A stretch of DNA of 20,945 nucleotides. Source: a virus. A program made the position numbers and the translations under genes. Under the pieces are notes generated by a model that worked only from the letters and a program-made list of their open reading frames with translations, was not told where the DNA came from and did not search any database. This document shows positions 3,779 through 20,945 of the stretch, in pieces (the first letter of the stretch is position 1; each line of letters starts with the position of its first letter). The DNA is taken from the IMG/VR virus record IMGVR_UViG_3300005838_000083, positions 1 to 20,945 of that record. One strand, 5' to 3'.

Positions 3779-4864
3779 TTAACGACTGGCTTTTAATATA
3801 TACTTTCCATACTTATCATGAAACTTGTCAAAGCTCTTAAGTTTAGTTGGACTAAACTTTAAGTCATATGTAGTAAGAGCTGTTCTAGCACCCATAACTA
3901 CAATTTCTGTTTCAAAGTTTTTCATCATATATTCAAAGAAGCAGTCAAGATTTTTAAGCCATTTATCTTCTTTGACATTGTTTTCTTGTCGCTCTTTAAG
4001 TTCATAACACATGGACACTACCAACGAATACATAGCTGATATATCTTTAATTTCTAACTCTTTAACTTTGCCTTCTAGTATGTCTTCTGGATTAGGCATT
4101 TGTCCAGCTACTTTTCTGTGTGCCATAAACTTAACAGCCAGGCCTTCTCCAACACTACCTGCTATTAGGTTGAGTAGAACGTTCTTGTCGGAATCTTCGT
4201 CTTCAAGTAACTCTGAGACAAAAGTCCACGAACGGGGGGTAGCGAACGCCCTACTCGAACTCTTAGGATCGAAATCGTATAAATCTTGTTTACTATATGC
4301 AAGATAACCGATAACGTCTTTATGTATTTTGTTTTTAACAGCCCATTCTTCCCAGCTTTCAAAATCAACTCTCATTTCTAAATGAATAAATCTATTAGCA
4401 AGTGGAGTAGGCATTCTGTAAGTAACACCTTTATCTGACTCTCTGTTACCTGCGGCTACCATAACAACATTGTCTGGTAAATGATACTTACCAACACGTC
4501 TGTTTAATATTAATTGATATGCCGCGGCCTGTACAGCAGGTGCCGCTGAATTCATTTCATCTAAGAACAATACAACAACTGGATATTCTTTAGCAAGTTC
4601 TTCACTAGGTAAATCAATTGGAGGAGCCCAATCCATTAATCCGTTTTCTTTATTATAAAAAGGAATACCTCTGATGTCTGTTGGATCCATTTGACCTAAA
4701 CGTAGATCAATCATATGACCTTTCATGTCTTGAGCAATATCTGCTACTAATTCTGATTTACCTATACCTGGAGGACCCCAAAGGAATACAGGACGTTGTT
4801 TTTCAAAACATTTTCTAAGTCCTGTTCTAGCATCTTGTGATGTTATAGTTCTTGTATCTGACAT
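3779..4864 (-). CDS. MoxR-family AAA+ ATPase
   Basis: This is a 361-residue AAA+ ATPase of the MoxR/RavA type. Visible motifs are Walker A GPPGIGKS (30-37), Walker B VVLFLDE (97-103), sensor-1 Asn140 in VAAGN, and an arginine in PLANRF (154-159) at the usual finger position. MoxR ATPases form hexamers that work with VWA-domain partners to mature or remodel protein complexes. The partner here is most likely the metallopeptidase-VWA protein encoded at 620-1942. Expression starts from a consensus promoter at 4908-4936, leaving a leader of about 37 nt with a GGGGGTG ribosome binding site before the ATG at 4864. The substrate is not indicated by the context. Confidence 0.92.
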   Translation of the reverse strand: MSDTRTITSQDARTGLRKCFEKQRPVFLWGPPGIGKSELVADIAQDMKGHMIDLRLGQMDPTDIRGIPFYNKENGLMDWAPPIDLPSEELAKEYPVVVLFLDEMNSAAPAVQAAAYQLILNRRVGKYHLPDNVVMVAAGNRESDKGVTYRMPTPLANRFIHLEMRVDFESWEEWAVKNKIHKDVIGYLAYSKQDLYDFDPKSSSRAFATPRSWTFVSELLEDEDSDKNVLLNLIAGSVGEGLAVKFMAHRKVAGQMPNPEDILEGKVKELEIKDISAMYSLVVSMCYELKERQENNVKEDKWLKNLDCFFEYMMKNFETEIVVMGARTALTTYDLKFSPTKLKSFDKFHDKYGKYILKASR

Positions 4865-7681: not shown

Positions 7682-7756
7682 TGGTACACCCTAGGAGAAT
7701 CGAACTCCTCTCCCGGCCGTGAAAGGGCCGTGTCCTAACCGATAGACGAAGGGTGC
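7682..7756 (-). tRNA. tRNA-Glu (anticodon TTC) with encoded CCA
   Basis: The 75-nt cloverleaf has acceptor arms GCACCCT/AGGGTGT (one G-U pair), anticodon stem CGGCC/GGCCG around the loop CTTTCAC (anticodon TTC), T-arm GAGGAGTTCGATTCTCC, and an encoded CCA. It is intact by eye and closely resembles bacterial tRNA-Glu. It is the first product of the 7798-7826 promoter, about 35 nt downstream of the predicted +1, and must be processed away from the omega-like mRNA. Confidence 0.95.
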
Positions 7757-12136: not shown

Positions 12137-12484
12137 CTAGTACTTCTGTTTTTCTGCAATAACACCACGTACACCGCCTCTAGGATCTGCACAATCGCCG
12201 TCTGTGCGTGGAATCATATGTACATGAGGATACATTACTGTTTGTCCTGCTGACTCGCCTACGTTTTGACCTATATTAAAACCAGTGCAATAACCTTTTT
12301 GATATAGATCTAATCCCCAATCATATGCTTCTTCAAAGCAGGCTTTTCTGTGCATCGGGTCGTCTTGTTTAGGAACAAACAATAAGTGGCCTTTGGTTAC
12401 AGGATATTTGTCTTCAAATACTAAAAATAATGGATGATCCATTAGCGGTTTTGATTCAAACCAAGGAGTATCTTCTAGTTTCAT
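12137..12484 (-). CDS. HIT-family nucleotide hydrolase/transferase
   Basis: The 115-residue protein carries the HIT core: VFEDKYPVTKGHLLFVPKQ (22-40), FNIGQNVGESAGQTV (69-83) and PHVHMIPR (86-93). The usual HxHxH appears as Y-P-H-V-H: the catalytic middle His (87) and the last His (89) are kept while the first is Tyr85. The following GDCADPRGGVRGV is typical of dinucleoside polyphosphate hydrolases. Such enzymes cleave AppppA-type or adenylylated substrates. The first 63 residues are almost identical to a truncated copy encoded 540 bp upstream. The ATG at 12484 is 7 bp after the 104-aa membrane protein gene. Confidence 0.85.
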   Translation of the reverse strand: MKLEDTPWFESKPLMDHPLFLVFEDKYPVTKGHLLFVPKQDDPMHRKACFEEAYDWGLDLYQKGYCTGFNIGQNVGESAGQTVMYPHVHMIPRTDGDCADPRGGVRGVIAEKQKY

Positions 12485-12491
12485 AATATTC

Positions 12492-12806: not shown

Positions 12807-13024
12807 TTAACTTCAGTGTAGCCACCGCCTAAGTCTTTTTGATATAGATCTAATCCCCAATCATATGCTTCTTCAAAGCAGGCTTTTCTGTGCATTGGGT
12901 CGTCTTGTTTAGGAACAAATAGCAAGTGTCCTTTAGTTACAGGATACTTGTCTTCAAATACTAAAAATAATGGATGGTCCATTACTGGTGTTGATTCGAA
13001 CCAAGGTGTGTCTTCTAGTTTCAT
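12803..13024 (-). CDS. Truncated HIT-domain paralogue with swapped C-terminus
   Basis: The 73-residue protein repeats residues 1-63 of the full HIT protein with very few changes (mainly S-K-P-L to S-T-P-V), then ends DLGGGYTEVK. The whole HIT signature and catalytic histidines are missing, so it cannot be an active HIT enzyme; it might bind the full copy, or be a relic. The new tail resembles the end of the 122-aa neighbour (DLGDGKSEIS), suggesting a recombination join within a short similar sequence. It starts with an ATGA overlap with the 40-aa membrane peptide and the frame is intact, so it is probably translated. Confidence 0.8.
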   Translation of the reverse strand: MKLEDTPWFESTPVMDHPLFLVFEDKYPVTKGHLLFVPKQDDPMHRKACFEEAYDWGLDLYQKDLGGGYTEVK

Positions 13025-13143
13025 ATCTTTTTGTTAATCCATCTGATAAGTGCGTATACAACCAGTGCCATTATGATATAAATGATACCGTCCCACCATG
13101 ATATGTTGTTTAAGAAATCTGCTGTAATAAATGATAAGTCCAT
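13021..13143 (-). CDS. 40-aa membrane peptide
   Basis: A short gene starting MDLSFITADFLNNISWWDGI encodes one strongly hydrophobic helix (about 20-34, IIYIIMALVVYALI) with a basic end RWINKKI. GGAG lies 9 nt before the ATG. The start overlaps the stop of the 122-aa gene as TAATG, and the stop overlaps the start of the truncated HIT gene as ATGA. The fit on both sides supports it as real. The function is unknown. Confidence 0.72.
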   Translation of the reverse strand: MDLSFITADFLNNISWWDGIIYIIMALVVYALIRWINKKI

Positions 13144-13511
13144 TATGATATCTCCGATTTACCGTCACCTAAGTCACGCTTGTTAGTTTTCATCCCAGGA
13201 TTCATTGCTTGTTCCTGCTCATATGTTTCCATTACTACGTTTCGACAGATATTTTGAAACCATTGATCTACTAGAGCTTGATCAGTTTTTCCTTGATACC
13301 CTGCCTTTATTAATCTAGCAATAAAAATATCATTCCAATCAAGTTCAAATGCTCCGTCATTTAAATTTTCTGGATCAACATCCATACTTACTATATTAAT
13401 GTATGGTTCTTTATTTTTATCTGCTAATTCTTTAGCTGATAATTTCTTTTTACCTTTCTTAGGCTGTTCTTTCTGGCCTAACATGCTTTTAAGTTTATCT
13501 GTTATTCCCAT
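13143..13511 (-). CDS. Conserved phage protein, 122 aa
   Basis: The function is unknown. A basic, Lys-rich head (MGITDKLKSMLGQKEQPKKG) is followed by LSAKELADKNKEPYINIVSM, then DVDPENLNDGAFELDWNDIF (44-63), a helical DQWFQNICRNVVMETYEQEQ and the tail DLGDGKSEIS. The DPEN...G.FELDWN block is one I recall from a conserved protein of T4-like cyanophages and related marine phages. It overlaps the MetK stop by 10 bp and is probably driven by the consensus promoter inside metK at 13577-13605, with a leader of about 59 nt. Its last residues resemble the tail of the truncated HIT protein. Confidence 0.8.
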   Translation of the reverse strand: MGITDKLKSMLGQKEQPKKGKKKLSAKELADKNKEPYINIVSMDVDPENLNDGAFELDWNDIFIARLIKAGYQGKTDQALVDQWFQNICRNVVMETYEQEQAMNPGMKTNKRDLGDGKSEIS

Positions 13512-14584
13512 CCTATTTTCTCCCAGGGTACGTTTTTATTACCAAAGTGTCCGTAAACACAGTTCTCACGATAGTTATTATAGTTGAATAAATCAAATCT
13601 GTCAATGATTCCTAACGGTGTTAAATCAATATTAGATCTAATAAACTTTTCTATAGAACGATTATGCCCATTTGATTCTACATATATTGATGTAGGTTCT
13701 TTAACACCAATAGCATAACTTAACTGTATTTGACACCAGTCAGCCATTTCACTAGCTACTACATTTTTTGCTAGCCAACGGGCCATATAGGCCGCTGAAC
13801 GATCTACTTTAGTTGGATCCTTGCCACTAAATGCACCACCACCATGTGGAGCCCATCCACCATAAGTATCTACGATAATTTTTCTACCTGTTAGTCCTGA
13901 ATCTCCATCTGGACCACCTACTACAAAGTTACCAGTAGGATTGAGATGCCATACAGTATCATCATCTACTAGATGCCCTAACACTGACAGTGCCACATCT
14001 TGTGATATTTTTCTAGCTTGATCACAATCTCCTTCAGTGTGTTGAGTGCTTATTACCACTTGGTCGATACGCTGTATTTGATCACCTATATATTCAACAC
14101 TGACTTGACTTTTAGCATCTGGCAACAATATATCATTGTTTTGTCTTGCTTGTTTTAGTTGTTTAAGTATCTGGTGACTGTAATATATAGGTGCAGGCAA
14201 GTATGCTTCGTTGTCTCTATTAGCATATCCAAACATAATACCTTGATCACCTGCCCCAAAATCGTCTGTACCTAAGGCAATGTCAGCTGATTGGCTATGT
14301 ATATGATTGTCTATTTCTAGTGTATTCCAATGGAATCCTTCTTGTTCGTATCCAATCTTCTTAACAGTATCTCTAACTATTTGATTGGCATCAACGACAT
14401 TAAAGTTTTTAACTTCACCAGCTAGTGTTACGTGATTTGTTGCTACTAATGTTTCAATCGCTACTCTTGTTGTGCGATCACCTAGTTCTAACCCAGCATC
14501 TACTAAGGCATCAGATATTTGATCTGCTACTTTATCTGGATGTCCGTCTGATACTGATTCACTTGTAAATATATATTTGTCCAA
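13502..14584 (-). CDS. metK: S-adenosylmethionine synthetase
   Basis: This enzyme makes SAM from methionine and ATP. The 360 residues contain the family motifs: FTSESVSDGHPDK (6-18), GAGDQGIMFGYA (110-121), GGPDGDSGLTGRKIIVDTYG (223-242) and GGGAFSGKDPTKVDRSAAY (248-266). Bacterial MetK is about 380-400 residues, so this is slightly short but complete, with the substrate-loop and metal-binding signatures intact. It sits between queE and the 122-aa gene. SAM is used by QueE and by the two methyltransferases in the window, so the phage may be raising its own cofactor supply. The start follows the QueE stop directly. A perfect sigma70 promoter lies within its last 100 bases. Confidence 0.95.
   Translation of the reverse strand: MDKYIFTSESVSDGHPDKVADQISDALVDAGLELGDRTTRVAIETLVATNHVTLAGEVKNFNVVDANQIVRDTVKKIGYEQEGFHWNTLEIDNHIHSQSADIALGTDDFGAGDQGIMFGYANRDNEAYLPAPIYYSHQILKQLKQARQNNDILLPDAKSQVSVEYIGDQIQRIDQVVISTQHTEGDCDQARKISQDVALSVLGHLVDDDTVWHLNPTGNFVVGGPDGDSGLTGRKIIVDTYGGWAPHGGGAFSGKDPTKVDRSAAYMARWLAKNVVASEMADWCQIQLSYAIGVKEPTSIYVESNGHNRSIEKFIRSNIDLTPLGIIDRFDLFNYNNYRENCVYGHFGNKNVPWEKIGWE
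13577..13605 (-). promoter_or_regulatory. Perfect sigma70 promoter inside the 3' end of metK
   Basis: TTGACA (13600-13605) and TATAAT (13577-13582) are separated by 17 bp, within codons for IDRFDLFNYNNY. The predicted +1 is near 13570, so the transcript would begin about 60 nt before the 122-aa gene. It can uncouple the 13511-11432 genes from metK. Confidence 0.78.
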
Positions 14585-15451
14585 TTATGTTCCCCAGGCA
14601 TTACGCCAAATGTCTACTTGTAGTCTAGGTGAATACCTATATGCTTTTTTCATTGATAATTCTGCTACTTGTTCAGTATTAAGATGATAGTCTTCTGGTA
14701 ATCCACCTATAGGCATTAAGTATACTGGTCCTTGAAATCCTGCATCTCTGTATTCTTTTACTGCACGATCAACATCTTCAACGTCATCTTCAGTTGACAC
14801 TACAAACTTAAGATATGTATAACCTAGTTTTTCATAGTTAACAACAATGTCAGGTTTAATTGCTTCTTCCCACTTCTCACCTGAACATGGCAGTTTAGCA
14901 CTCACTGAGAATGTTAGTTGATCCCATAGTCTCAGACCATGCCATACATTGTAAACCCATTGTTCAAACTCTGGTGCTATCTCTTGTGTACCGTTAGTTT
15001 CAAATGTTATGTTGTGTAATCCTTTTTCCATAGCTTGTTCAAGCAGTTCTGGATAGCTACGTTGCCAACCCAATAACGGTTCACCACCTGTAATTACTAA
15101 GTGTACATCTTGCTGTGAATCATTATCCCAACGACCTCCTGGAATAAGTTCTTCCATTCGTTGATTAACAGCCGTTGTTTCTAATACTGGAGATAAGTGC
15201 TTAAACTTTGGATGCCATGACGCATAACTATCACAACCTGTTGCCGCTAAAGGCAGTTCCTCATATATCTTAAACTGATCTACCTTTTCAGCTATTTCCT
15301 CAGGAACTGTAGTAGATTCACCTTTAGGTAAACCAAACCCTCTACATTGAAAGTTACAACCAAAAGTTCTTAAGAATACACTAGGCACACCTGCCCATTT
15401 ACCTTCACCTTGTAAACTATAAAATATTTCTGCTACTTTAAGTTTTTTCAA
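14585..15451 (-). CDS. queE: 7-carboxy-7-deazaguanine synthase (QueE-like radical SAM enzyme)
   Basis: QueE turns 6-carboxytetrahydropterin into 7-carboxy-7-deazaguanine with a radical SAM iron-sulphur cluster. Visible features are EIFYSLQGEGKWAGVPSVFL (8-27), Cys32 and Cys36 in GCNFQCRGFG, ITGGEP (120-125) and FETNGT (149-154). The usual third cysteine two residues later is absent; the likely replacement is Cys73 in ATGCDSY, giving CX3CX36C. The 288 residues exceed the 210-225 of typical QueE, in keeping with an insertion. Together with QueD at 17751-18326 it supports 7-deazaguanine synthesis, for tRNA queuosine or for modification of phage DNA. No DpdA, QueC or FolE is present in this window. 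Confidence 0.85.
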   Translation of the reverse strand: MKKLKVAEIFYSLQGEGKWAGVPSVFLRTFGCNFQCRGFGLPKGESTTVPEEIAEKVDQFKIYEELPLAATGCDSYASWHPKFKHLSPVLETTAVNQRMEELIPGGRWDNDSQQDVHLVITGGEPLLGWQRSYPELLEQAMEKGLHNITFETNGTQEIAPEFEQWVYNVWHGLRLWDQLTFSVSAKLPCSGEKWEEAIKPDIVVNYEKLGYTYLKFVVSTEDDVEDVDRAVKEYRDAGFQGPVYLMPIGGLPEDYHLNTEQVAELSMKKAYRYSPRLQVDIWRNAWGT

Positions 15452-15664
15452 TTATCTATTCCTATCTCGATCATAATATTCTTTAGTGTGTTCATAGTCG
15501 TCTTTATTTTCTTCAACTTTCTTTTCAAAGTTACAGTCTTTTCCTAAAGGGCATTCTTCATCATCGACGACCTCAACCATATGGTCAACTACCCAGAGAA
15601 TAACAACTACTAATACTGCACAAAATATTATCCATAAACCAAAAACTATTAGACCTGTACTCAT
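15452..15664 (-). CDS. Small single-pass membrane protein, 70 aa
   Basis: The function is unknown. Residues 4-27 form a strong membrane helix (IVFGLWIIFCAVLVVVILWV). A short acidic part with ECPLGKDC (two cysteines) follows, then a very charged tail ending DRDRNR. The tail is probably cytoplasmic or a flexible anchor. The start overlaps the methyltransferase stop as TAATG and the stop is adjacent to the QueE start, so it is translated with its neighbours. No link to deazaguanine synthesis is evident. Confidence 0.72.
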   Translation of the reverse strand: MSTGLIVFGLWIIFCAVLVVVILWVVDHMVEVVDDEECPLGKDCNFEKKVEENKDDYEHTKEYYDRDRNR

Positions 15665-16455
15665 TATATTTTCCTTGCTTTAATTAGTAAGTGCCATCCT
15701 AGATACTCTTTAACTGCATCACGCATGAGTTCTGGCATAGCTTCAAACCAAGGTTCTAATTCAAGTTTACCTTGCTTATACATATCTATATTATACATGA
15801 AACAGTGTGCTTGACGCAACCTTAATATTTCAAAACTGTTTTCCAGAAGGTCATACAGTTCTGTTGATGTGTATGCCTGTGCAAATGGGCAATCTGCCTG
15901 TGCCTCAAACTGATCTAACCCTTTTCTGATCATAGCATACTTCCATGAATTCTTGGCATAGACCATGAAGCGGAACTCACCGCCCGGTGCCACTAACCCA
16001 TGTATATTTCTGATGATCTGTTCTATGTTGGGAAAGTGATGTATCACTCCCATGCTGTACACTAGATCATAATCGCCCTCAAGCTGTTTAATTTCCTCTG
16101 GATCAGCCATGTTTATAACCCTAAGGTCACCGTGTAGGCCATAGACTTTAAACTGCTTTTTGGCTAATTCTATTGATTTTTTGCTTATGTCTATGCCTGT
16201 ATAGTCAGCACCATGTTTGGCAAACTGTACTGCGTCCCACCCCATACCGCAACCTATCTCTAATACACGCTTGCCTCGCCATTCATGAAATCCAGCAAAG
16301 TCCATGACATGGGGTTCTACTTCATAGCGTGTACGACTACCGGATTCAAAATATTCCAGTGTACCAATCTCTCCATTACCTTTTTTAATGCCACAGGGCT
16401 GATGGTCCCAATAGCTTTTGATCTTACTCGTTAAGCTGTTTTCTGATCGTGTCAT
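15664..16455 (-). CDS. Class I SAM-dependent methyltransferase (UbiG-like)
   Basis: The 263-residue protein has motif I VLEIGCGMGWDA (64-75), acidic loop GIDIS (87-91), DLVYSMGVIHHFPN (130-143) and a VAPGGEFRF strand. N-terminal YWDHQPCG (15-22) resembles the start of small-molecule and sugar methyltransferases. The adjacent glycosyltransferase suggests action on a glycan or lipid-linked sugar. By hand count several lines here are 43-52% GC, against about 28-40% in flanking genes, so this gene and its neighbour look like a recent acquisition. Start ATG at 16455 overlaps the glycosyltransferase stop by 4 bp. Confidence 0.83.
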   Translation of the reverse strand: MTRSENSLTSKIKSYWDHQPCGIKKGNGEIGTLEYFESGSRTRYEVEPHVMDFAGFHEWRGKRVLEIGCGMGWDAVQFAKHGADYTGIDISKKSIELAKKQFKVYGLHGDLRVINMADPEEIKQLEGDYDLVYSMGVIHHFPNIEQIIRNIHGLVAPGGEFRFMVYAKNSWKYAMIRKGLDQFEAQADCPFAQAYTSTELYDLLENSFEILRLRQAHCFMYNIDMYKQGKLELEPWFEAMPELMRDAVKEYLGWHLLIKARKI

Positions 16456-17270
16456 GTTCTTGCAGTTACTTTGTGTGGATCATTTGCTTCTAGCTTGTCC
16501 CAGGCTGGGCCTTTACCTGATAATAACTTCTCAAAATGAGTGTTGTAATCTCCCTTTAGTTTAAGATGCCACATGATCTTAGCACAGTCAGTGTAGCGTC
16601 TTTGAATCATTTGCGGGCTATTTAGGTCCATTGGATTTTCAGGATTGCCTTCTAGTTGTGGCCTATTTTTAAATGTTTCATCGTTGGTTTCTGGATTACC
16701 GGTGATATCATGCCTGTCGTGAAATATTTCAATATCATATTCGTTTTCCATAATGTCACAAAGATACGCAACTTGACTTACCCAAGCATCAGTCATTTGC
16801 TGTGGACTGATAGTTCCGGTCAACACATAGAACTCATGCGGTATAATTGGAAATATTGCGTATGGGTGTTCCATGTTGTCTTTGACTCGTAGTATGCGGA
16901 ATTTACCCGTATGTTTGCATATAGTTTTATCCCAATCTTTGGATTTCATCCTAGCGTCATCATTAAAGAACAGGTACCAAGCACCACTGGCCTTTGAAGC
17001 CAAATAGTTTAGATATTCATTTAGTCGCTCATATCCCCATCTTGGAACGACATAGACCCCATAGTCTATCTTTTTCTTGTCCATGTAGGGTATGATTGTC
17101 TTTTTGAAGTAGTCTATGCTCTCCTGATCGTCATCGTCTAGTGCTATGAGATACTCAACACTTCCTTCCTTGCTCACAGTCTTCCATAAGCTTTTAAGAG
17201 CATCAAACATCATCTTAGGTCGTTTTCTCGTAGGAATCAAAACGCTGATACGTTTAGTGGGAGTTATCAT
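16452..17270 (-). CDS. GT-A-type glycosyltransferase
   Basis: The N-terminus carries the GT-A nucleotide-binding strand ISVLIPTRKRPKMMFDALKS (8-27), then EYLIALDDDD (39-48) and a DxD-like WYLFFNDDA (98-106), the expected metal and UDP or GDP site. The remaining ~165 residues carry the acceptor part, with no membrane segment. It resembles family-2-like enzymes that glycosylate phage proteins, DNA or host glycans; the target is unknown. I chose ATG 17270 because the domain starts there; an in-frame GTG at 17312 with GGAGG upstream and a TTG at 17339 are alternatives that would overlap the preceding gene. GC content is raised, as in the neighbouring methyltransferase. Confidence 0.75.
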   Translation of the reverse strand: MITPTKRISVLIPTRKRPKMMFDALKSLWKTVSKEGSVEYLIALDDDDQESIDYFKKTIIPYMDKKKIDYGVYVVPRWGYERLNEYLNYLASKASGAWYLFFNDDARMKSKDWDKTICKHTGKFRILRVKDNMEHPYAIFPIIPHEFYVLTGTISPQQMTDAWVSQVAYLCDIMENEYDIEIFHDRHDITGNPETNDETFKNRPQLEGNPENPMDLNSPQMIQRRYTDCAKIMWHLKLKGDYNTHFEKLLSGKGPAWDKLEANDPHKVTART

Positions 17271-17302
17271 CCTATTACAAAGTTCAGCTAAAGCTTTTTG
17301 TT

Positions 17303-17758
17303 CTACTGCCACCAGTCCTCCCAAGGAAACACTTGCCAAACATTTTCTTCAAGTTTATTAATATCAAGACTTGAATAATCAACTTCTTCAGTGCTAGCTT
17401 CATTGTTAATTAATACTGCATAGGTTACTGCGTCAGTTCCCCATACGTCTTTGATAGCAGATATAGTAGCACCAGTGTCATTGATATCATCTATCACTAA
17501 CACTCGTTTGCCTTTATTAATACCAATTTCTTCTTTGAGTGCATTGAGATTATCTTCACCTACATGGTCACGTAAGCTTACTTTTACGGCGTGCATTGGT
17601 ATATCTAGATACTGCGAAACCAGCACAGCGGGCGTTAAACCGCCCCTTGTGAGCCCAACTACACAATCAAAACTTTGTTGATCTACGTGAAGTTGTCTAA
17701 TAATATCCTGTGTCATTTCTTCAACTTGTTGCCAACTGTAAAACGCTTTCTTAGTCAT
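17303..17758 (-). CDS. Purine phosphoribosyltransferase
   Basis: The 151-residue protein has the PRPP-binding motif VLVIDDINDTGAT (86-98), a GLTRGG loop (35-40) near the diphosphate site and a C-terminal WQVFPWEDWW typical of guanine/xanthine/hypoxanthine PRTases. It would make a purine nucleotide from the free base and PRPP. Beside QueD this could supply guanine nucleotides or handle a 7-deazapurine base; that link is inference. Three in-frame ATGs exist (17788, 17764, 17758). I chose 17758, which gives an 8-bp overlap with queD and a GGGAG 10 nt upstream. Confidence 0.86.
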   Translation of the reverse strand: MTKKAFYSWQQVEEMTQDIIRQLHVDQQSFDCVVGLTRGGLTPAVLVSQYLDIPMHAVKVSLRDHVGEDNLNALKEEIGINKGKRVLVIDDINDTGATISAIKDVWGTDAVTYAVLINNEASTEEVDYSSLDINKLEENVWQVFPWEDWWQ

Positions 17759-18326
17759 TGCCATATTTCTCCCAACGAGGAACGTCATTTATATAAACTG
17801 ATCTTGACTTGGGTGTTTCATACCATTCAACACGTTGAACTCTAACACCAAGTTTCTTCATCTTGATTTCTACAAGTTCAGCCATCCAACTTGATAAGTT
17901 TTCTGATGTAGGCACAAAGTCTACAATCATGAAACCCTCATAGTATTCATATTCTGGTGTGTTAGGATCTAAATCGCTAAGATCTAAATGCCAACCTGTT
18001 ACGTGATTTACACCAGGTAATATAACTGGAATTAATTTACGATCACCAATCATTTGATTATATAGTGGATCATTCTTGTCTAGCACAAACTGATGATCAA
18101 TATATTCATTGATCCATTTCTTTAACCACTCTAAGTGTCTAAAGTCTGTTACCATGCCAGTTGCATCCAGTTTGTCTGCTGTCAGGTGAACAGTCATGCG
18201 TCCTTCATGACCATGTAAATGTCTACAAGCACATTTAAGATCAGCGGCGTATTCACCGTTTAGTGTCTGTGTGTGAACCCTGTGTCCATAACAGAATTCA
18301 AATGCTTTATCGATGATGTGTGTCAT
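17751..18326 (-). CDS. queD: 6-carboxy-5,6,7,8-tetrahydropterin synthase (QueD-like)
   Basis: QueD makes 6-carboxytetrahydropterin, the substrate of QueE. Family residues are present: zinc His15 in CYGHRV, Cys34 (catalytic) plus zinc ligands His38 and His40 in CRHLHGH (34-40), Asp77-His78 in IDHQF, and Glu142 in PTSEN. The protein is 191 residues against about 120 for E. coli QueD; the extra length lies mostly between about 85 and 135. An 80-nt untranslated leader precedes it, and the ribosome binding site is TGGAGAG before the ATG. The 3' end overlaps the phosphoribosyltransferase gene. It shares the deazaguanine route with queE, 2.3 kb downstream. Confidence 0.88.
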   Translation of the reverse strand: MTHIIDKAFEFCYGHRVHTQTLNGEYAADLKCACRHLHGHEGRMTVHLTADKLDATGMVTDFRHLEWLKKWINEYIDHQFVLDKNDPLYNQMIGDRKLIPVILPGVNHVTGWHLDLSDLDPNTPEYEYYEGFMIVDFVPTSENLSSWMAELVEIKMKKLGVRVQRVEWYETPKSRSVYINDVPRWEKYGND

Positions 18327-18406: not shown

Positions 18407-18568
18407 CTATTTACCACGGTTTTTCTTTGCTTGGTAATTATTATACTCTCCTTCTTTAATTGCAACAAATCTTTTAATAAAAGCCCTTCCTTGTGCTTTA
18501 GTAGGAAAGCTTGCCGCCATTACTTTTAATTCAGTTGATATTTTTACTGCTTTTGCATCATATGCCAT
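18407..18568 (-). CDS. Small basic protein, 53 aa
   Basis: A short frame starting MAYDAKAVKISTELKVMAAS continues FPTKAQGRAFIKRFVAIKEG and a basic tail. It is mostly helical and Lys-rich with no cysteine. The start overlaps the stop of the nucleotidyltransferase gene as TAATG, so it is probably translated by coupling. The function is unknown; size and charge are compatible with a nucleic-acid-binding or regulatory peptide. Confidence 0.68.
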   Translation of the reverse strand: MAYDAKAVKISTELKVMAASFPTKAQGRAFIKRFVAIKEGEYNNYQAKKNRGK

Positions 18569-19023
18569 TATTTTTTCTCCGCTTCTGCCACTCGTTTACG
18601 TAATGAACTTGAACTAAATGAATGATCGCGGCCATTATATACTAATTCAATTCCCCTTTTAATACAAATATCTTTACCAGTAAAGTCTTTATCTTTATAC
18701 TCTACTCCTAATATTCTAACATCTATTGGCATAGAAAGCAAGATATCTTCTAAATCTTTTTCTGTTTGGTATACCACAATTTCATCAACAAAGCGATTAC
18801 ATCCTAACTGTATCTGTCTTTCTACTATTGACTGTATAGGACTGTTTTTGTTTGCTCTGTCTAGTGTAGGATCTGTTTGCAATCCTGCTATCAAGTAATC
18901 ACAGTGATTTTTACATTCGCTTAACATAGCAACATGCCCAGCGTGTAATAGGTCAAAGGTTGAGAAAGTGATGCCTATCTTCAACCCTTGGTCTTTAAGT
19001 TGTTTTACTTTATCAAATATCAT
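18568..19023 (-). CDS. TagD/RfaE-like nucleotidyltransferase (HxGH family)
   Basis: The 151-residue protein is a cytidylyltransferase-like enzyme: ITFSTFDLLHAGHVAML contains the HxGH motif (His27, His30), and HSFSSSSLRKRV near the C-terminus corresponds to the second nucleotide-binding motif (ISSTxLR type). Such enzymes join CMP or AMP to glycerol-3-phosphate, ethanolamine phosphate or heptose-1-phosphate to activate a head-group or sugar. The single-domain length fits TagD-like proteins. It may feed the glycosyltransferase or surface modification, but the substrate cannot be read from the sequence. It is coupled by TAATG to the protease gene before it and to the 53-aa gene after it. Confidence 0.82.
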   Translation of the reverse strand: MIFDKVKQLKDQGLKIGITFSTFDLLHAGHVAMLSECKNHCDYLIAGLQTDPTLDRANKNSPIQSIVERQIQLGCNRFVDEIVVYQTEKDLEDILLSMPIDVRILGVEYKDKDFTGKDICIKRGIELVYNGRDHSFSSSSLRKRVAEAEKK

Positions 19024-20945
19024 TAAAAAGTAAACTCGTAAAATGCACCAACTAATGCGTCACCTTCTTGATCAACAGCACCATTAAGTCTTAAATTGTG
19101 TACATTACCAAATTTATCTTCTGAGTTGGTTAAGTTATACTGAGCACCTACATAACTAACAGGCTCACCTGTCATGTCTGCTTTGGCATTAGTATATGAC
19201 ATAACACCTGTGCTACTAACTGATGTTGGTATTCTTAAATCTAACTCACCATCTATCACAGTAGGCTTAACACCTACATATAAGTTTAAGTTATCGTTAG
19301 CCCAACCAGCAACACCATACATTGAAGTAATATTATCAACATCTTCAACTAGTCCGCTATCAAAGTCTGTTATAGAATACATAATACCTAGTTGTGCATA
19401 CCAATTGTCTGGCTTATACATTGTTGAATACTCAAATGTGTCTGTTGAATTAACTTGCCCCCACATACCACTGAAGCTCATAAAAGGTGATCCGTAACTT
19501 TTTGTGTAAGTAAATCTTTCTGTCCAGTTACTTGGATTCATAATTTTTCCAGTGTACTGATCTCTTATTGCCAGAGCTGAACTGTCAAACCCAACTGATA
19601 TTGCATCAAATGTATCATCACCTAAGTCTTGTTGATAAGCATTAAGATACCAACCTTTATAGTTTGCACCTTCTCCTCCTACAAACTTACTTGACCATGA
19701 ACTACCCACTGAGTGATCTAATTGATATACAGGAATTAAATTTGAGCTACCTTCCTTAAGATCTAGTGTTGATGAACTCAAATCAACTGTGTAGTCACGA
19801 CCTATTTCATCAACTACTTTAACACTTGACAGTTCTGTTATATCACTAATACCTGCTACGGCAATACCACCCGATAGTGGTGTAGTGGATCCTGTTCTAC
19901 CTGTCATTGATATACCTAAACTACCAATTGGTTCAGTAGCTCTCTTAAGATCTAACAAGCCTTGACCGTGTGTGTTAACATTGTAACCTACTATAGTTTT
20001 GTCAGCAGTATCTAATAACACTTGAACAATGTTTTCACCTTTCATGTATGGCCACATTTGATGTATAACTGCTACTGCACCAGCAACTACAGGAGCCGCT
20101 TGTGATGTACCACTCAATGCTTTATAAGTACCATCTTTGTATGCACCATACATATTACTGCCTGGTGCTAATATATAAAAGTCTGAAGTTCTATAAGTGT
20201 CTAAACATTCACTGCCACTATAGTTTTTACAAATATGTCCTGACTTTGCACCATCAATAGTGTTAGTAGAAGTATTCCATGCACTAACAACTATTGCACG
20301 ACCGTCCATAACCAAGTTACCTGAACTATCTGTTGCTACTGCAAATGTCGCAGGATTCTGTACATAATCGTTTGATTGATTACCTGCTGATATAGTTAAT
20401 ACTATTTCACTACCTGACATAGCACTACCCCAAGACTCTGGAGTTTCCATATTATAATAGTTAGTTCCGCCATAGTGTTCATGGTTACTAGTAAACACAC
20501 CATTACCTCGATTAGTAATTGAACTTGTGTAGGATGAATGATAGTTTGTATTTGCTGATAAGTTGGCTACTACTGCGTCTGTATTATTCTTAAGATATGT
20601 AATACCTTGTTTTGCAAAGCTCATTGAAGCTGACCATGAGTCAGTAATTTTAACAATAGCTAGGTTAGCATCTGGTGCTATACCCATAACATCTCCGCCC
20701 ATGTTACCAGCCGCAATTGATGCTACATGAGTACCGTGACCTACTGAATCTTCAATTCCATTGTCATAACCTGGTTCCCATTGATACTTAACTTTGCCAA
20801 CTAGTTCTGGGTGATCAATATCAACTCCACTATCTAATATACCAATTGTGGATCCTTTACCTGTCCATCCTCTTGACAATGCCCACTCTTGACCAACTGC
20901 TGAGTTAAAGTTTTTAAAGTTATCAAGACCTTGATAATATGTTGG
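19023..20945 (-). CDS. Subtilisin-like serine protease with C-terminal beta-barrel-like domain (5' end outside window)
   Basis: The frame stays open to the right edge, giving 640 visible residues (numbered from base 20945) with the N-terminus missing. The S8 triad is intact: Asp38 in GILDSGVD, His70 in GHGTHVAS, Ser281 in SGTSQAAP, with oxyanion Asn189 in ISAGN. After about residue 330 the sequence changes to alternating strands rich in Tyr, Trp, Ser and Gly and ends GAFYEFTF, a terminal aromatic typical of outer-membrane barrels. The layout resembles a subtilase autotransporter (SphB1-like) rather than a phage tail protein. A signal peptide, if any, is outside the window. It is coupled by TAATG to the nucleotidyltransferase gene. 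In a phage this is unusual; cell-surface proteolysis during infection is inference. Confidence 0.82.
   Translation of the reverse strand, partial: PTYYQGLDNFKNFNSAVGQEWALSRGWTGKGSTIGILDSGVDIDHPELVGKVKYQWEPGYDNGIEDSVGHGTHVASIAAGNMGGDVMGIAPDANLAIVKITDSWSASMSFAKQGITYLKNNTDAVVANLSANTNYHSSYTSSITNRGNGVFTSNHEHYGGTNYYNMETPESWGSAMSGSEIVLTISAGNQSNDYVQNPATFAVATDSSGNLVMDGRAIVVSAWNTSTNTIDGAKSGHICKNYSGSECLDTYRTSDFYILAPGSNMYGAYKDGTYKALSGTSQAAPVVAGAVAVIHQMWPYMKGENIVQVLLDTADKTIVGYNVNTHGQGLLDLKRATEPIGSLGISMTGRTGSTTPLSGGIAVAGISDITELSSVKVVDEIGRDYTVDLSSSTLDLKEGSSNLIPVYQLDHSVGSSWSSKFVGGEGANYKGWYLNAYQQDLGDDTFDAISVGFDSSALAIRDQYTGKIMNPSNWTERFTYTKSYGSPFMSFSGMWGQVNSTDTFEYSTMYKPDNWYAQLGIMYSITDFDSGLVEDVDNITSMYGVAGWANDNLNLYVGVKPTVIDGELDLRIPTSVSSTGVMSYTNAKADMTGEPVSYVGAQYNLTNSEDKFGNVHNLRLNGAVDQEGDALVGAFYEFTF

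Follow-up and report, generated by a model that had tools for sequence, protein, structure and literature searches.

Does a phage place a protease on the outside of the cell that it infects? The question is raised by a linear virus fragment from IMG/VR, 20,945 nucleotides in length (we term this whole stretch the window), at one end of which sits an ORF encoding a subtilase with a strand-rich C-terminal part. The start codon is missing, as the gene runs past the end of the contig. The features of the gene and its neighbors are collected in Table 1.

Table 1. Coordinates of the subtilase gene, its parts and the genes that follow it in the window
Feature	Position	Strand	Basis or remark
Subtilase-barrel ORF	19023..20945	minus	640 aa plus stop, open throughout; 5′ end cut by contig end
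Peptidase_S8 catalytic domain, residues 29-328	19962..20861	minus	Pfam PF00082, E 3.9e-32; subtilisin fold by Foldseek
Catalytic Asp38	20832..20834	minus	Invariant in 18 aligned family members
Catalytic His70 (HGTH)	20736..20738	minus	Invariant in 18 aligned family members
Oxyanion-hole Asn189	20379..20381	minus	Invariant in 18 aligned family members
Cys239...Cys247, the only two cysteines	20205..20231	minus	Invariant in 18 members
Catalytic Ser281 (GTSxAAP)	20103..20105	minus	Invariant in 18 aligned family members
Protease-barrel linker, residues 341-431, with invariant D379 and R383	19653..19925	minus	Alignment of 18 members
Predicted 12-stranded beta-barrel, residues 432-640, ending in Phe640	19026..19652	minus	AF2, Foldseek, profile match to bacterial domain
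TAATG stop/start overlap with next gene	19021..19025	minus
Nucleotidyltransferase, CTP_transf_like, heptose-adenylyltransferase-like; coupled downstream gene	18568..19023	minus
Operon-like run continuing downstream	13502..18326	minus	Annotation and synteny
QueD	17751-18326	minus
Phosphoribosyltransferase	17303-17788	minus
Glycosyltransferase	16452-17339	minus
Methyltransferase	15664-16455	minus
QueE	14585-15451	minus
SAM synthetase	13502-14584	minus

The match to PF00082 and the alignment place Asp, His and Ser in the order that defines the S8 family. The complete triad reported in the initial annotation is intact (D38, H70 and S281) and, together with N189, unchanged in all 18 members. Cys239 and Cys247 probably form a disulfide, and a like pair is present in 67 of 72 family members. 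The linker that follows the protease contains a motif resembling one in bacterial relatives. The closest relative used here, L003, is 88% identical to the window protein across its 640 residues. Comparison of the two gave dN/dS = 0.145 overall, with 0.142 for the S8 domain and 0.178 for the barrel; since the ratio is low in each, both parts are under purifying selection.

What is the structure of the C-terminal part? AlphaFold2 run on the family alignment gave a model (pLDDT 88, pTM 0.79) with 12 strands in residues 432-639, in line with the strand-rich character first noticed there, and the same 12 strands were obtained for the C-terminal domain alone (pLDDT 88, pTM 0.82). Because a Foldseek comparison of the full model with the PDB gives mainly subtilisins, the barrel was modeled separately. 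Its matches were nearly all outer-membrane barrels (OmpF, PorB, OmpG, OprD and OmpT-type), at a weak level (best E 0.01, TM about 0.3), with no solved autotransporter barrel among the 50 PDB matches listed. A sequence search of the PDB with the barrel profile returned nothing usable. The alternation of side chains along the strands exceeds that of shuffled strands, with 23 of 5000 shuffles as high. The chain ends in Phe, as the initial annotation had it; this residue is C-terminal in 63 of 71 family members and is replaced by Trp in two. L020/L022-type lineages have additional residues following the barrel, so that there the end of the barrel is not the C-terminus. We regard an outer-membrane-type barrel as a fair prediction, and on the model the domain is likely to sit in the outer membrane.

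The N-terminus was read from relatives in IMG/VR, numbering more than 70. P0001 retrieved 23 of these and the family alignment 79 loci, the two sets overlapping. From the second set 72 ORFs were read, 66 of them 5′-complete. A Sec-type signal peptide stands at the start of 64 of these 66, 38 being of the lipoprotein type (SPII; for example LTACGGGG) and 26 SPI, as called by a simple purpose-written rule rather than by SignalP. A stricter rule was passed by 13 of the 20 5′-complete proteases in the first set of loci; among the 284 other ORFs of at least 150 aa at those loci, only 5 passed it. L003 also has a signal peptide, its N-terminus reading MLFLRSILVVVMLFVSTSVYA and then G. The feature sought upstream of the protease is thus found in the relatives, and the window protein, whose own N-terminus is truncated, may be credited with a Sec signal peptide by homology with L003. 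The region preceding the protease is very variable in length across the phage family. In L003 it has a repetitive EARLAE stalk immediately before the point at which the window contig starts, which is probably the cause of the assembly break. Taking these N-termini together, export of the phage subtilase is well supported and highly probable.

Proteins of related construction are known in bacteria. Subtilisin-like autotransporters constitute Group 15 of type Va, with NalP, SphB1, EprS and Ssp, of which NalP and SphB1 are tethered by lipid and process other surface proteins (PMC9289746). The phage family has in common with these four a Sec signal peptide, an S8 passenger, a predicted 12-stranded C-terminal barrel and a terminal Phe; many of its members have a lipobox, as do NalP and SphB1, and EprS has a cysteine pair in the C-terminal half of its S8 domain, as in the phage proteins. 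They differ from Group 15 in being phage-encoded, in their early-type promoter and in the very variable region before the protease. Moreover, their barrel is not detectable as an Autotransporter beta-domain (PF03797), which was matched by none of 18 family members, whereas the classical autotransporter controls L037 and L065 do match it. A profile comparison (hhalign) of the phage C-terminal domain with classical EprS-type barrels was negative, and no passenger-associated repeat was found in the 18 members scanned. The proposed kinship with type V surface proteases is therefore sustained by the signal peptides, the predicted 12-stranded domain and the C-terminal aromatic residue, a BAM signature, but not by homology to PF03797.

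The C-terminal domain does have bacterial homologs. Profile comparison with the corresponding domains of four proteobacterial secreted subtilases gave a probability of 99.2 and E 2e-19. Generic subtilases dominated the matches listed in a scan of genome contigs, which was replaced by whole-genome searches with the barrel profile; by these, 58 of 385 alphaproteobacterial and 15 of 369 gammaproteobacterial genomes in the sample have the domain. Most of the instances that were read have a recognizable subtilase motif ahead of it, and a lipobox or a start resembling a signal peptide. The unnamed proteobacterial secreted S8 proteins (L034, L030, L057, L128 and others) share with the phage proteins the S8 domain, a homologous linker, the C-terminal domain and the signal peptide or lipobox; they differ in being encoded in bacterial chromosomes and in forming a separate clade. 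No Pfam model is matched above cut-off in the C-terminal domain of the bacterial members scanned. An undescribed barrel domain is thereby indicated, missed by current family models; barrel-like C-termini of this kind (L034, L030, L025, L057, L128-L147) are present in about 15% of the alphaproteobacterial genomes sampled.

Could the gene then be a bacterial one that has been misbinned as viral, through contamination or as cargo of a decayed prophage? The bacterial homologs might suggest so, as might the single bacterial sequence (L130) that falls inside the phage clade. Yet in a tree of 33 sequences this is the only bacterial row in a clade (100/100) of 16 phage proteins. The T4 Gp23 capsid gene is present on seven contigs that carry the family, including records of 343,632, 306,714 and 302,518 bp, the second of which adds T4 portal and terminase genes. 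Since these contigs bear T4 structural genes, the family is genuinely viral and belongs to large T4-related myoviruses, and for the family as a whole misbinning is refuted. Synteny is also kept across the loci, and in PA5oct the genes for QueE, exonuclease and ATPase follow one another as they do in the window. The window's exonuclease shares 54% identity, and its ATPase 52%, with the counterparts in PA5oct-like jumbo phages. We therefore give a bacterial origin of the record almost no credence. A search of the PA5oct genome found no subtilase anywhere in it. As to L130 itself, its gene is chromosomal and adjoins genes for GcvP, gamma-glutamyltranspeptidase and an integrase, so that the tree placement may reflect a possible transfer between phage and bacterium. 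The same genome (G235; L130/L148) offers a bacterial lipobox S8-barrel gene inside the phage clade, beside an integrase.

When in infection is the protease made? Read from the sequence, a sigma-70-type site (TTGACN, N16-18, TATnnT) lies within about 100 bp upstream of the protease at 14 of 16 loci. In a wider set, which overlaps the first, 42 of 64 members have such a site and 22 have none that is recognizable; upstream of other ORFs it occurs in only 22 of 350 cases. At the same loci there are 51 sites on the coding strand and four on the opposite strand, a bias that suggests true promoters. Neither set showed a T4-type late motif ahead of the protease; the control for this motif in capsid-region genes is thin, as in one record a late-like motif is present for the portal gene but absent for the capsid gene. 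In T4-type phages a site with −35 and −10 elements, read by the unmodified host polymerase, is early. The sigma-70-type promoters and the lack of a late motif thus point to early expression rather than to a part of the virion, and the protease is probably an early gene, although the window's own promoter would lie outside the contig.

This bears on the second reading offered in the initial annotation, that of a virion-attached protease, which as part of the tail or capsid would cut the host surface at adsorption. Phage S8 proteins that adjoin tail fiber or minor tail genes do occur, in the cultured jumbo phages Atu_ph07 and Phosso (phrog_3677), and BFVD lists an S8-like fold for a baseplate wedge protein of a cyanophage and for a tail fiber protein. 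However, the Atu_ph07 and Phosso proteins, which have the S8 domain in common with the window family, start without a signal peptide, and that of Atu_ph07 has no match to the family C-terminal profile (hhalign). They are of a different kind, and show how a probably virion-linked S8 protein is likely to look. The window family, with its signal peptides, sigma-70-type promoters and location outside tail modules, among metabolic genes, does not resemble them, and attachment to the virion is very unlikely. PHROG 3677, the best PHROG match, contains the tail-region S8 proteins of Atu_ph07 type and was set aside. In cultured phages the full architecture was not found: when five family members were compared by tblastn with 50,697 phage records, the S8 domain alone was matched, mainly in Gram-positive phages. 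'Pseudomonas phage Y5' was dropped as a Gram-negative relative, as the stretch concerned is P. aeruginosa-like chromosome; in this unverified record (L106, OQ572407.1 51180-60139) an EprS autotransporter, a transporter and ornithine carbamoyltransferase are encoded, which are not phage genes.

The reading that we prefer is of a surface-displayed, early, autotransporter-like S8 protease made by the phage on the infected cell, toward which the evidence as a whole inclines. The phage would produce the protease early in infection, and Sec would move it across the inner membrane by its N-terminal signal peptide, which is of SPI type or, in over half of the family, has a lipobox. Insertion of the 12-stranded C-terminal domain into the outer membrane would follow, with BAM, engaged by the terminal Phe, as the probable route. 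The S8 domain would be left on the surface of the infected cell, by analogy with autotransporters of the NalP/SphB1 type. That the protease domain is outside the cell we consider probable. Once there it would most likely cut host surface proteins, removing phage receptors and excluding other phages.

The neighborhood of the gene offers some indication of its use. The translational coupling to the downstream gene that was first proposed is borne out by the stop/start overlap. The description of that gene as TagD-like holds only roughly: it encodes a CTP_transf_like nucleotidyltransferase, which among the PHROGs comes closest to a family of heptose-1-phosphate adenylyltransferases. The partner is not conserved; elsewhere among the relatives its place is taken by a thymidine kinase or by an ORF unrelated to it. 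The neighbors of the protease gene are metabolic and not tail genes, and include those of surface-glycan type: glycosyltransferases, a sugar epimerase and a DegT aminotransferase. SAM synthetase, QueE and QueD lie in one run (13502-15451 and 17751-18326), and family loci add GTP cyclohydrolase upstream of the protease; together these genes are a deazapurine (queuosine-type) pathway block. Near the protease gene of the 306,714 bp phage contig (L014 10116-10688) is another ORF with a signal-peptide-like start, MFKKILIATVIATLTLSSHA.

Early synthesis together with nearby glycosyltransferase, epimerase and aminotransferase genes fits remodeling of the host surface, most simply by the shaving of receptors. 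Superinfection exclusion or surface shaving is thus a plausible main role, with a likelihood somewhat short of even. The main alternative use of the same protein at the same location would be nutrition, the infected cell digesting outside protein and so feeding the long infection of a large phage; the protease would then serve as an auxiliary metabolic gene product. The metabolic block around the protease (QueD, QueE, GTP cyclohydrolase, SAM synthetase and nucleotide genes) would agree with this, and a tethered protease might suit the capture of products; against it, no gene for peptide or amino-acid uptake was found among the neighbors scanned, and the benefit to one lysing cell would be questionable, so that we consider feeding rather doubtful. 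An exported location would also be compatible with a helper in lysis or maturation. Such a helper would loosen the envelope to let the phage out, or would act on a further exported phage protein in the way that bacterial subtilase autotransporters process other surface proteins (PMC9289746). This is unlikely, as an early-type promoter is poorly suited to release and no conserved exported partner gene adjoins the protease. Returning to receptor shaving, we suggest tentatively that large T4-type phages may own an autotransporter-like secretion device. This would be a protease made early, as a lipoprotein or in secreted form, with a translocating barrel of a family outside PF03797, and by shaving the infected cell it would keep rival phages out. 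If so, phages would employ a type V-like pathway for placing an enzyme outside the infected cell, and receptor shaving by proteolysis would be a testable mode of superinfection exclusion.

To our knowledge, phage-encoded outer-membrane or surface proteins are mostly small lipoproteins or porins. We found no published description of an autotransporter-like subtilase of phage, or of a phage-borne surface protease of this kind, within a partial coverage of the literature. At least one such protein has apparently been deposited already, without interpretation: A0A6J5TBB6 in BFVD, a Peptidase S8/S53 domain protein of an uncultured Caudovirales phage, matches the fold of the window protein over its whole length (TM 0.70, 717 columns). 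By fold its architecture is apparently the same, with 21% identity in sequence. BFVD also has phage proteins named 'autotransporter beta-domain'. The pelagimyophages encode the curli secretion genes CsgF and CsgG (PMC7029224). These are likewise phage-encoded secretion or outer-membrane machinery of unclear use, but they belong to type VIII and, unlike the phage subtilase, are neither a protease nor a single-polypeptide system.

Some other features of the window may be noted. A stretch of 191 bases is duplicated with 93% identity (12295-12485 and 12835-13025); in this area a small ORF resembling a membrane protein lies between a full HIT-like ORF and a truncated copy, and L003 has one copy. 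A tRNA-Glu (TTC) gene is located at 7682-7756 on the minus strand. Finally, a DUF2201 metallopeptidase/VWA-like protein lies near a phrog_1297 ATPase (620-1942 and 3779-4864), forming a VWA-ATPase pair.
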